Positions 6,313-9,868 of a DNA stretch of 41,254 nucleotides are shown here, piece by piece; the first letter of the stretch is position 1, and every line of letters begins with the position of its first letter. The notes beneath the pieces are model-generated. The model made no database searches. It had not been told where the DNA came from and saw only the letters and a program-made list of their open reading frames with translations. Position numbers and translations under genes: made by a program. Source of the stretch: Opitutus sp. GAS368 (lineage in GTDB: Bacteria; Verrucomicrobiota; Verrucomicrobiia; Opitutales; Opitutaceae); contig CAMDRP010000016.1 of NCBI GenBank assembly GCA_945906965.1, forward strand, positions 1-41,254. Direction: 5' to 3'.

Positions 6313-6603
6313 TCACTCTTGGCCGAGGATGCGCGCCATCTCGGTTTCGAAAAGTTCGTAAACGAGGGAGCGTTCGTGGAGGTAAACGCAATCGACGATC
6401 CGGCCGGGCAGGTAGCGAAAGATCACGCGGTATGGGCCGACTCTAAGGCGGTAGTAACCAGCGAGGTTGTCGCTCAGCGCGTTTGTATCGCCTGCCTCCT
6501 CGAACAACCGGAGTATGGCGCGCTTGAGATCGCGCCGGGATTGCAAACCGAGCGTCGCCTGGAATGCGCGTACCTGCTCCTTGATTTGAACCGTGTAGCT
6601 CAA
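6313..6603 (-). CDS. RelE/ParE-family toxin
   Basis: A 96-residue toxin of the RelE/ParE superfamily. The conserved core near residues 43-65 reads LSDNLAGYYRLRVGPYRVIF, with the Arg and Tyr positions used by RelE-type ribosome-dependent mRNA nucleases. ParE-like gyrase inhibitors share the fold and cannot be excluded. No ATG is available at the N-terminus. The frame opens at a TTG at 6601-6603 that overlaps the antitoxin stop codon as TTGA, so translation is probably coupled to the antitoxin. The weak start codon would keep toxin yield below antitoxin yield. The stop lies seven bases from the convergent CE15 gene. Confidence 0.87.
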   Translation of the reverse strand: MSYTVQIKEQVRAFQATLGLQSRRDLKRAILRLFEEAGDTNALSDNLAGYYRLRVGPYRVIFRYLPGRIVDCVYLHERSLVYELFETEMARILGQE

Positions 6604-6848
6604 TCGAGCAGCGCCGAGGCGGGATAAGTCTTGGCTTTGCCACTCTCGGCGTCGCGGATCGCTTTCATCGCGGCGGGATCGGCGAGGATTTCCATTGTCT
6701 CCGCAATGGCGGATAGGCGCTCAGCGCTGATGATGTGGACCACGGGTTTATGATGGCGCGTGATGGTGGCGAGGCTGCCGCGTTCGGCTTGGCGGATGAC
6801 GGCCGACAGATTTTTTTGCGCCTCTTTAATCGTGTAGGCCGATTTCAT
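6600..6848 (-). CDS. Phd/YefM-family antitoxin
   Basis: An 82-residue antitoxin that should bind and neutralise the adjacent toxin and repress its own promoter as a dimer. The N-terminal DNA-binding half has the family pattern MKSAYTIKEAQKNLSAVIRQ, followed by RGSLATITRHHKPVVHIIS. The C-terminal 35 residues, which would wrap the toxin, include ILADPAAMKAIRDAESG. I chose the ATG at 6848 because Phd proteins normally begin MK followed by this motif. An in-frame ATG at 6860 would add four residues (MPFC). Its stop overlaps the toxin start. The operator should lie in 6849-6910, but I see no perfect palindrome there. Confidence 0.88.
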   Translation of the reverse strand: MKSAYTIKEAQKNLSAVIRQAERGSLATITRHHKPVVHIISAERLSAIAETMEILADPAAMKAIRDAESGKAKTYPASALLD

Positions 6849-6910
6849 GCAAAAAGGCATACATAGGGGCAGGTAGTGGTCAAACTGGCGGTGGGCTCCT
6901 GCTGGTGGGT

Positions 6911-6982: not shown

Positions 6983-8500
6983 CTATCGGTCTGAATCCGG
7001 CGTCGCTGCGCCCGCAGCCGGCGGAGAGCCGTGAAGGAAGGCGTGGAGTTCGGCGGCCATCTTGCCGCCGAAGCCGGCAACAGCGGAGATTTCTGCGGCG
7101 GTGGCGGCGCGAAGTTTTTCGATGTCGCCGAAGTGTTCGAGCAACGTCGTGCGGCGGACGGCGCCAAGGCCGGGAAAATCGTCGAGTACGCTCTCGCGGA
7201 TTTTGCGCGAGCGCAGATCGGCGTTGTAGGTGTTGGCGAAGCGGTGGGCCTCGTCGCGCAGGCGCTGGAGGAGATTCAGCGCGGGGGAATTGAGCGAGAG
7301 GTTGAGCGGCGGGCGCTCGTCGGGGAAAATGATCGTCTCGTGTTTCTTCGCTAGGCCGATGAGGGGCGGCGGCGTGAGATCGAGGGCGACAAAGGCTTTG
7401 AGCGCGGCCCCGATTTGTCCACGGCCACCGTCGATCACGACGAGGTCGGGCATCGGTTTTTGTTCATCGCGCAGGCGACGGTAGCGGCGGCCGACGACTT
7501 CTTCCATGGCGCGGAAATCGTCGTTGCCCATGAAGCTTTTGATTTGGAAGCGGCGGTAGTTGTCTTTGTCGGGCCGGCCGTCGACGAAGCGCACCATCGA
7601 AGCGACGACGAAAGTGCCGGAGATGTGGGAAATATCGAAGCACTCCAGCGTGCGCGGCGGCGGGTTGAGCGCGAGCGCCTCGCCGAGGAGGCGCACCGCT
7701 TGGGCGCTGGCATCGGGCAGCGCGAGCGTGGGATCGGTGCGCTCGAAGTTGCGGGTCTTGGCCAAGGTTTTTTCGAGGGCGAAAACGATGTCGCGCAGCT
7801 CGGCGGCTTTCTCGAATTGTTGTTTCTCGGCGGCCGCGAGCATTTCGGTGCGCAGGGATTCGAGCCATTCGCGCGATTTGCCTTCGAGAAACGCGCACGC
7901 CTCGTCCACGCGTTGACGGTAGGCGTCGGGCGTGACGGTGTTTTCGAAACCGTAGAGTTCTTGGCGGACGTCGTCGTATAGTTGCCAAGTGCCGTCGGGG
8001 AGTTTTTTCGGCGTGGCGTCGCCGAGAAGTACACCGAATTGACGGCGCATCTGGGCGAGGGTTTTGCGAAGAAGCCCGCTGTGGGCGAAGGGGCCGAAGT
8101 AGCGCGAACGGTCTTCTTTTTTGAAACGCGTGAGGCGGACGCGCGGGAGTTCTTCGGCCACATCGACGCGGACAAGGAGGAAGCGTTTGTCGTCGGTGAA
8201 GTCGGTGTTGTATTTCGGTTTCCACTGCTTGATCAGCTTGCCTTCAAGCAGCAGCGCCTCGGGCTCGGATTTCACCTCGTGCACGTCGAAGTCGGCGATC
8301 ATTTCGATGAGGGCGCGGATTTTCGGGTGCCACGTCATCGCGCGCGACGGCGTGAAATACGTCGAGACGCGCTTTTTGAGATTCTTGGCCTTGCCCACGT
8401 AAATGATGCGCCCGAGACGGTCCTTCATGAGGTACACGCCCGGCTGGTCGGAGAGGCGTCGGACCTTCTCCTTTAAATTTACGGTTTCGCCAGTTGGCAT
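6983..8500 (-). CDS. uvrC: excinuclease ABC subunit C, reduced form
   Basis: UvrC makes both incisions in nucleotide excision repair with UvrA and UvrB. The 505-residue protein has an N-terminal GIY-YIG nuclease (GVYLMKDRLGRIIYVGKAKNLKKRV, residues 21-45) and a UVR motif that contacts UvrB at about 213-245 (EKQQFEKAAELRDIVFALE). The RNase-H-like endonuclease has acidic and histidine positions at Asp289 (ECFDISH), Asp357 (VIDGGRGQ) and His419 (DEAHRF), and a helix-hairpin-helix pair follows at about 440-490. It is about 100 residues shorter than typical UvrC: the block between the UVR motif and ECFDISH is only about 35 residues. None of the four cysteines that bind the 4Fe-4S cluster between GIY-YIG and UVR is present. 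Both nucleases look intact, so it is probably functional. It is divergent from cinA with 36 bases between starts. Confidence 0.93.
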   Translation of the reverse strand: MPTGETVNLKEKVRRLSDQPGVYLMKDRLGRIIYVGKAKNLKKRVSTYFTPSRAMTWHPKIRALIEMIADFDVHEVKSEPEALLLEGKLIKQWKPKYNTDFTDDKRFLLVRVDVAEELPRVRLTRFKKEDRSRYFGPFAHSGLLRKTLAQMRRQFGVLLGDATPKKLPDGTWQLYDDVRQELYGFENTVTPDAYRQRVDEACAFLEGKSREWLESLRTEMLAAAEKQQFEKAAELRDIVFALEKTLAKTRNFERTDPTLALPDASAQAVRLLGEALALNPPPRTLECFDISHISGTFVVASMVRFVDGRPDKDNYRRFQIKSFMGNDDFRAMEEVVGRRYRRLRDEQKPMPDLVVIDGGRGQIGAALKAFVALDLTPPPLIGLAKKHETIIFPDERPPLNLSLNSPALNLLQRLRDEAHRFANTYNADLRSRKIRESVLDDFPGLGAVRRTTLLEHFGDIEKLRAATAAEISAVAGFGGKMAAELHAFLHGSPPAAGAATPDSDR

Positions 8501-8536: not shown

Positions 8537-9868
8537 ATGGTTTCTTCCAGCAACACCCCCACAGCCCGCAAACCGGTCGCTCAACTTTATTACGAACTAC
8601 TCACCCTCGGTGATGAATTGTTGCTCGGGCTAACGGCTAACGGCCATCTCACGTTCATCGGTGCGCAACTCGGTCGGCGCGGCGTCACTTTGCGGCGCAA
8701 CATCACGATCACCGACGAAGCGGATGCGATTGTTGCGCAATTTCGCGAGAGCTGGGCGCGGGCCGATGTCGTGATCACGACGGGCGGACTCGGGCCGACG
8801 TGCGACGACCGTACGCGCGAATGTCTCGCTGAAGTCCTCGGGCAAAAGCTGGTCCACGATGCGAGCGTGGAGGCGAGCATCGCGGCACGTTTTGCGCGAC
8901 TCGGGCGCACGATGACGCCTAATAATCTCAAGCAAGCGCTCGTGTTTGAGCGCGGTGAAGTGCTCGTGAACGCCAACGGCACCGCTCCCGGTCTTTGGGT
9001 TGAGCAGGACGGGAAAATTCTCGTGATGTTGCCCGGCCCGCCAAATGAGTTGCAGCCGATGTTTATCGAGCAGATCGTGCCGCGGCTCGCGGCTCGCGGC
9101 TTGCTCACAGAGAAGGAAGCTTACGTGCAACTGCGCACTTCGGGCGTAGGTGAGAGCGCGCTGGAGACGCGGTTGCAGCCGATTTTTGATCGTTTCGGCA
9201 CGGCGCTGAGCATCGCGTTTTGCGCGCATTCGGGTCACGTGGATTGCCGGGTGAGTTCGCCCGGCGGCCAGTTGGACGACGTGCAGTTACAGGTCATCGC
9301 CGCGGAGTGCGCGAAACTGCTCGGCGAGGATTTTGTCTGCTATGGTCACGATTCCCTCGCGAAGGTGTGCGCGGATATGTTGCGCGCACAGGAGAAGATG
9401 CTCGCGTGTGCCGAAACGGCGAGCGGCGGTTTGCTGGCAAATTCGTTTACGGATATTTCCGGCGCCTCGAAATTTTTCGCCGGCGGCACGGTGTGCTACT
9501 CTAACGAATCCAAAATGCAGCTCCTCGACGTGCCGGAGTCTTTGCTCGCGCAACATGGCGCGGTAAGCGCGGAGAACGCCGTCGCGATGGCGACGGGCGC
9601 GGCGGAAAAACTCGGGGCGGATTACGCGGTCGCGATCACGGGTTTCGCCGGTCCCTGCGGCGGCACGCAGGAAAACCCCGTCGGAACCTTCTATCTCTCG
9701 CTACACGCCCCGCATGGCGTGTGGTCGAAAAAACTCAGTTATCCCGGCCCGCGTACGACGGTTAAAGTCCGCGCGGTGAATGCCGCGCTCGATTGGTTGC
9801 GCCGCGAATTGTTGCGCGCGGGGAGTGGCGCCAGCGCCATCTCGCCGCGCGGCGAAGCGATGCAATAA
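8537..9868 (+). CDS. cinA: CinA-like protein: MoCF domain plus nicotinamide-nucleotide amidohydrolase domain
   Basis: A full-length two-domain CinA of 443 residues. The N-terminal MoCF/COG1058 domain has GDELLLGLTANGH at 25-37 and TGGLGPTCDDRT at about 80-92; in characterised CinA proteins this domain is an ADP-ribose/NAD-metabolite pyrophosphatase. The C-terminal PncC-like domain has AETASGGLLAN, GGTVCYSNESKMQLL and ITGFAGPCGGT, matching enzymes that deamidate nicotinamide mononucleotide and so recycle NAD by-products. The first twelve residues (MVSSSNTPTARK) are a non-conserved extension, so the true start could be slightly downstream. The gene is divergent from uvrC and convergent with purC, and no neighbouring recA or competence gene suggests a DNA-uptake role. 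Confidence 0.93.
   Translation: MVSSSNTPTARKPVAQLYYELLTLGDELLLGLTANGHLTFIGAQLGRRGVTLRRNITITDEADAIVAQFRESWARADVVITTGGLGPTCDDRTRECLAEVLGQKLVHDASVEASIAARFARLGRTMTPNNLKQALVFERGEVLVNANGTAPGLWVEQDGKILVMLPGPPNELQPMFIEQIVPRLAARGLLTEKEAYVQLRTSGVGESALETRLQPIFDRFGTALSIAFCAHSGHVDCRVSSPGGQLDDVQLQVIAAECAKLLGEDFVCYGHDSLAKVCADMLRAQEKMLACAETASGGLLANSFTDISGASKFFAGGTVCYSNESKMQLLDVPESLLAQHGAVSAENAVAMATGAAEKLGADYAVAITGFAGPCGGTQENPVGTFYLSLHAPHGVWSKKLSYPGPRTTVKVRAVNAALDWLRRELLRAGSGASAISPRGEAMQ

Follow-up and report, generated by a model that had tools for sequence, protein, structure and literature searches.

A conserved cysteine-free segment in place of the iron-sulfur cluster domain of UvrC in Opitutales

Introduction

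The [4Fe-4S] form of the excision repair nuclease UvrC is recognized by four conserved cysteines that follow its GIY-YIG domain. The cluster was described in 2020 by Silva et al., as cited in excerpts of PMC8837605 and PMC9426483; structure, DNA binding and redox signalling are all candidate roles. None of the UvrC chains listed from the PDB covers the cluster domain. A gene on a 41,254-nucleotide stretch of DNA from Opitutus sp. GAS368 (the whole stretch is called the window here) raises the question of whether a bacterium can do without this cluster and, if so, what stands in its place. An earlier reading of the letters alone, the sequence-only reading, had proposed that the gene encodes a naturally cluster-free UvrC, reduced by loss of both the cysteines and a central block. 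If it is cluster-free, this protein, the only UvrC found in its bacterium and like every one read from its order in having a cysteine-free stretch, offers a natural test of the cluster's purpose.

UvrC proteins with missing parts have been described before. According to an excerpt of PMC1564403, Mycoplasma UvrC has a deleted Cys-rich domain and retains the other domains, and an excerpt of PMC9426483 describes UvrC of H. felis and H. suis as being without the middle region. The openly licensed literature that was searched yielded no report of a cluster-free UvrC in Verrucomicrobiota, and none of replacement by a conserved segment, of spread throughout an order or of two unrelated types. Set against the Mycoplasma deletion, as far as the excerpt describes it, the elements that appear new are the conserved replacement segments, their presence across an order and their two types.

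We consider it likely, with a probability of roughly four in five, that the window encodes a working UvrABC nuclease, the sole UvrC of its cell, in which the cluster domain has been exchanged for a metal-free fold.

Results and Discussion

A short UvrC with both nuclease domains

The open reading frame begins with ATG and encodes 505 amino acids, and its score against the TIGR00194 uvrC profile lies well above the equivalog cut-off of 285.45 bits (Table 1). The match falls into two pieces, covering model positions 1-232 and 365-573 of 574. The order of the GIY-YIG, UVR, RNase H and HhH elements and the nuclease residues are those of canonical UvrC (E. coli K-12, TIGR00194). However, the E. coli protein is about 610 amino acids long and includes both the four cysteines and the PF22920 domain, neither of which is present in the window protein. 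The RNase H-like domain sets it apart from the Cho class, whose members are GIY-YIG proteins lacking that domain.

Table 1. Features of the uvrC gene in the window and the evidence for each.
Feature	Position	Strand	Evidence
uvrC, short form without cluster cysteines	6983..8500	(-)	ORF; TIGR00194 392.4 bits; match in two pieces
GIY-YIG nuclease domain, residues 20-98	8207..8443	(-)	PF01541
Replacement segment in place of the four-cysteine cluster domain, residues 155-192, includes GVLLGDATPKKLPDGTWQLYDDVRQELYG	7925..8038	(-)	conservation, dN/dS, AlphaFold2
UVR motif, residues 213-244	7769..7864	(-)	PF02151 2.4e-7
Short linker, residues 247-270, at the place of the E. coli PF22920 block	7691..7762	(-)	PF22920 absent
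RNase H-like nuclease domain, residues 274-422	7235..7681	(-)	PF08459 2.1e-52; Foldseek to 2nrt 7.0e-18
Helix-hairpin-helix region, residues 439-487	7040..7186	(-)	PF14520 2.2e-6, 28.5 bits, cut-off 27

From what is known of the family, we take the GIY-YIG domain to make the 3′ incision, the RNase H-like domain the 5′ incision, and the UVR motif to contact UvrB. The GIY-YIG residues Y23, Y34, R44, Y48, E86 and N98, which we take to be the catalytic ones of the family, are as in E. coli and are present in all 56 proteins read from the window's order; point mutants of Thermotoga maritima UvrC at Y19, Y29, Y43 and N88 are named in PDB titles. Likewise, D289, D357 and H419, which we take to be the RNase H DDH triad, are identical in 56/56. 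In all, every one of the 56 order proteins has the same residue at each of the 12 positions checked in the nuclease domains, which range from 21 to 419, bearing out the sequence-only reading in its view that the protein is coherent and not decayed, and that both nuclease active sites and the C-terminal HhH region are intact. Sequencing error, which that reading had named as a possible refutation, and local decay are both excluded by the recurrence of the same gene shape and of a similar cysteine-free segment in 56/56 order genomes, several of which are single contigs. The AlphaFold2 model of the whole protein has a pTM of only 0.53, so the placement of the domains is not fixed by it, and residues 251-260 of the short linker have a pLDDT of 39.

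Two missing elements with different distributions

The window UvrC has cysteines only at positions 202 and 287. None lies within residues 155-192, the place at which E. coli UvrC and most other verrucomicrobial UvrC proteins read have four, and on this point the sequence-only reading was accurate. With only two cysteines, a single chain cannot supply the ligands of a four-cysteine cluster, and we infer that the protein is free of iron.

The second missing element is the domain PF22920, a second RNase H-like domain that occupies residues 253-370 of E. coli UvrC between the UVR motif and the RNase H domain. A Pfam search found it neither in the window protein nor elsewhere in the same genome. 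Between the same anchors there are 47 amino acids in the window UvrC versus 163 in E. coli, so that about 116 are missing; the sequence-only reading had recognized the absence correctly, although its figures of 35 residues left and 110 normally present were slightly low. PF22920 was found in 0/145 genomes of the phylum searched with 11/14 controls positive, and among the 12 controls that have a UvrC, only T. maritima lacks it. The stretch between UVR and RNase H is 42-50 amino acids long in 56/56 order genomes; elsewhere in the class it measures 44-50 (77/77 genomes read), and elsewhere in the phylum 43-48 (62/62 read). Among the best 80 of 585 relatives, the short form occurs in Planctomycetota (5/5), Kiritimatiellota, Lentisphaerota, Elusimicrobiota, Omnitrophota and some candidate phyla, whereas Actinomycetota, Bacteroidota and others have the long form. 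Absence of the block is thus widespread and older, and forms the ordinary half of the finding.

The distribution of the cysteines is far narrower. The order, judged by its named relatives to be Opitutales, was represented by 66 genomes, and the four cysteines are kept in none of the 56 UvrC proteins read from it (15 family codes). One gene was dropped as partial (G001), and matches in G268, G279, G284, G292 and G303 fall outside the 56. In a single order genome, G029, the segment contains two cysteines, but their positions differ from those of the cluster ligands. Among 77 other genomes read from the same class, the four cysteines are kept by 55 (36 family codes) and lost in 22. Those without belong to family codes f21 (6/6), f23 (9/9), f26 (3/3, including a Spartobacteria MAG), f53 (1/1) and f55 (3/3), and no class family code is mixed for this trait in the genomes read. 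In the rest of the phylum, 62/62 genomes read keep all four.

These shares are counts of genomes read, not frequencies, and they cover 77/118 class genomes and 62/128 further phylum genomes, with the lowest-scoring among those left out. Ranking loci with the best-scoring first favours four-cysteine forms; low-scoring class genomes were therefore fetched on purpose, and the 62 consist of 23 from the best-scoring list plus 39 lower-scoring genomes fetched to offset the bias. These 39 and the class genome G046, 40 in all, have four or more cysteines.

A similar picture emerges from the named loci, the best 80 of 585 relatives, after removal of one with a broken frame (L140): 68 have four or more cysteines, two have three and nine lack them. 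Cysteines were counted by number and not by spacing, and L151, L157 and L182 are thereby included as four-cysteine forms. L003 and other matches to UVR only were also dropped as rows. The nine are L118-L122 (Opitutia or Opitutales, with one cysteine in the segment of L122), L135 (Spartobacteria, with the same segment as G131 of f26) and L126, L127 and L130 (Verrucomicrobia, named no further). The two with only three cysteines in the cluster stretch (L152 and L155) are one Levybacteria and one Obscuribacterales UvrC. In the genomes read, loss of the cysteines does not extend beyond a portion of one class.

The two traits are seen apart in Akkermansiaceae, where two UvrC proteins (L131 and L132) lack the block as the window protein does, with a linker of 46 amino acids in both, but retain a C-x12-C-x7-C-x3-C pattern that the window protein does not have. 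A single event giving rise to a "reduced UvrC", as the sequence-only reading had envisaged, is rejected because the two losses differ in distribution: the block was found in none of 145 phylum genomes, whereas the cysteines, among the genomes read, are lost only in part of one class.

Some order genomes have an unusual uvrC complement. No UvrC match was found in G023 and G030, and only a weak match over the UVR part in G031 and G036, which for G031 (3.4 Mb, 96% complete) is the sole match. With 4/66 genomes lacking a proper match, some branches of the order may have no uvrC. Genome G035 carries, besides its own uvrC, a second match resembling the UvrC N terminus (C6:46443-46988) in a 469-amino-acid frame, perhaps a Cho or an exonuclease fusion. 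Class genomes G084, G121, G128, G133, G142 and G157 have extra GIY-YIG-like matches that cover no more than model positions 5-86 and lie in frames 121-409 amino acids long.

A conserved segment at the position of the cluster domain

The cluster domain has not simply been trimmed away. The stretch at this position is 51 amino acids long in the window UvrC versus 51 in a relative with four cysteines (L033), and the replacement segments of the order are equal or nearly equal in length to the cluster domain. Comparison of the sequences points to an exchange that keeps the spacing between GIY-YIG and UVR, not to a deletion. In this respect the window protein differs from Mycoplasma UvrC, whose Cys-rich domain is described as deleted (PMC1564403). 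It resembles H. felis and H. suis UvrC as described in the excerpt of PMC9426483, which reports the middle region as absent and makes no mention of lost cysteines in these two species.

The Opitutales segment has the core pattern GIL-L-D-P...DG-W-LYDD-R-EIYG. G156, P164, Y175, D177 and R179 are invariant in 56/56 order genomes, and L159, D161 and E181 are nearly so. Mean entropy across the order is 1.16 bits for the segment, comparing with 1.24 for the UVR region, 0.77 for GIY-YIG, 0.88 for RNase H and 2.14 for the free linker. For 12 sequences of the genus, the dN/dS of the segment is 0.117, with 0.032 for GIY-YIG, 0.085 for RNase H and a range of 0.032 to 0.207 for other regions (pooled Nei-Gojobori pairs, in which close pairs count repeatedly). 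The replacement segment is therefore conserved and under purifying selection.

AlphaFold2 gives mean pLDDT values of 91, 92, 83 and 82 for successive blocks of residues 151-190 in the window UvrC versus 79, 49, 59 and 68 for the same blocks of a relative with four cysteines (L134). The low scores of the relative are what a cluster-dependent fold would be expected to give, and are expected in part because AlphaFold does not model clusters; effects of the model and of the alignment are inseparable in this comparison. The contig carrying L134 is titled Candidatus Paceibacterota and is probably mis-binned or mislabelled, because the UvrC proteins of L134 and L133 (Verrucomicrobia subdivision 6) share 90% identity.

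These observations bear on the alternative that survives best, namely that the segment binds another metal through D161, D169, D176, D177 and E181, so that one metal was swapped for another and the fold is not metal-free. The acidic residues are well kept across the order genomes (D177 in 56/56, D161 in 55/56, E181 in 54/56, D176 and D169 in 49/56), as such a site would lead one to expect. However, the window segment contains neither cysteine nor histidine, carboxylates alone rarely form a tight structural metal site, and AlphaFold2 builds the segment with confidence when no metal is supplied. We consider a metal swap improbable, and favour an exchange for a metal-free fold, in which the four-cysteine [4Fe-4S] mini-domain between GIY-YIG and UVR would have given way to a cysteine-free segment folding on a core of its own. 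The new segment keeps the spacing from GIY-YIG to the UVR helices, and would do for structure and DNA contact what the old domain did.

Repair partners and genomic context

A second UvrC or Cho that might do the repair work instead, which the sequence-only reading had raised as a concern, was not found in the same genome (96.8% complete, 190 contigs) by TIGR00194 and GIY-YIG profile searches. The TIGR00194 search returned the window gene and one weak UVR match, which by Pfam, over 565 amino acids, lies in a UvrB on contig C143. The window UvrC is the only GIY-YIG protein above the cut-off; the frame containing a second, weaker match below it resembles ribosomal protein S4. An assembly in 190 contigs at this completeness leaves slight room for a missed copy, against which stand three relatives in one contig (G015, G016 and G028), each with one uvrC. 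Both partners are encoded in the genome, UvrA on C12 and UvrB on C143.

An ordinary dual-incision nuclease is the simplest account because the nuclease residues, the UVR motif, the HhH region and the partners are all present. The window UvrC would work with UvrA and UvrB as other UvrC proteins do, its GIY-YIG domain cutting 3′ and its RNase H domain 5′ of the lesion. That the protein is instead a degraded or repurposed nuclease no longer engaged in excision repair might be suggested by the two blocks in which it differs from E. coli UvrC, and by the order genomes with no uvrC match. We judge this very unlikely, given nuclease-domain residues identical in 56/56 proteins, dN/dS values between 0.03 and 0.21 for the measured regions, and the presence of UvrA and UvrB. 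Least credible of all is a cluster that two protomers share or that draws its ligands from elsewhere in the protein: C202 and C287 would provide four cysteines in a dimer, but both lie outside the cluster domain position, C287 is in an RNase H motif and common to four-cysteine forms such as E. coli UvrC, and one of 55 near-full-length order proteins has a single cysteine in its entire length.

The loss does not look like general avoidance of clusters, because an endonuclease III FeS motif is present in a glycosylase of the same genome. The motif scored 25.2 bits in one search and 20.1 versus a cut-off of 20.5 in another, and four cysteines are visible; the organism thus seems to make cluster-bearing repair enzymes. 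If their UvrC carries out excision repair, natural cluster-free lineages would allow the role of the cluster to be probed with no need for destabilising cysteine mutants. Such proteins could also provide an oxygen-tolerant UvrC for structural work.

Other genes in the vicinity and in the genome may be recorded here. A CinA-like gene (8537-9868(+)) is divergent to uvrC and 36 bases away. Downstream of uvrC on the same strand (6313-6860(-)) are a Phd/YefM antitoxin-like reading frame (44.5 bits, over the cut-off) and, overlapping it, a ParE-like frame (21.1 bits, under the cut-off of 23). Besides UvrA on C12, a 1945-amino-acid frame at C65:9245-14872 (L109-L111) contains two UvrA-like units in tandem.

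History of the cysteine loss

The 22 cysteine-free UvrC proteins from the rest of the class (f21, f23, f26, f53 and f55) share with the window protein the absence of the four cysteines and the short linker, but their segment, which we call type II, is five residues shorter and resembles VLTFGRGAPTERELKSSTYQVP, or is VLVQGTGAPKAKDLKYSTYLVP in f23. Mean identity between type II and Opitutales segments is 11-14%, and that of either to four-cysteine forms is 9-19%, values that depend on the alignment. On this comparison the two segments appear unrelated.

A UvrC tree of 76 rows, built by a quick method with the trait columns removed and weak in its deepest branches, places Opitutales as one starred clade and type II rows in several places, with 5 trait changes. 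The row nearest to the window by path is a named Opitutaceae MAG, 82% identical. AU tests on this tree, for groups drawn by the cysteine trait itself, reject a single origin of all cysteine-free forms (p 7.9e-8) and also a clade of the 14 type II rows (p 4.8e-5), although type II segments are plainly alike. An RpoB tree, used as a species proxy, comprises 28 rows out of the 30 genomes sought (there was no match in G035 and only a fragment in G104) and has several weak branches. It keeps six Opitutales rows together and requires 4 trait changes; f21 and f23 fall together next to G312, a four-cysteine genome that contains L128, and apart from f26, f53 and f55, with moderate support.

Identity by region adds a further element. 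Relative to a Spartobacteria-like set, f21 is 74% identical in residues 101-154, 65% in 155-192 and 45% in RNase H; its RNase H identity is 61% to f23 and 66% to L128. This pattern suggests that f21 is a mosaic, with the surroundings of its segment akin to the Spartobacteria-like set and its C-terminal half akin to f23 and L128. Because of the two trees and these region-wise identities, at least two replacements can be proposed, and perhaps also transfer of one module between lineages. The Opitutales replacement would date back to the order's ancestor or beyond it, to a lineage presumably already without the second RNase H-like domain. The fullest version of this history, in which unrelated metal-free modules took the place of the [4Fe-4S] domain at least twice in one class and recombination within the gene carried one module between lineages, seems to us evenly balanced between true and false. 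Should it be true, the cluster would be a replaceable structural brace that dual incision does not require, and cluster-free UvrC would exist in two natural designs.

The four-cysteine segments of L128 and L334 (G046) are identical, and L128 probably belongs to family code f27, the four-cysteine neighbour of f21 and f23.
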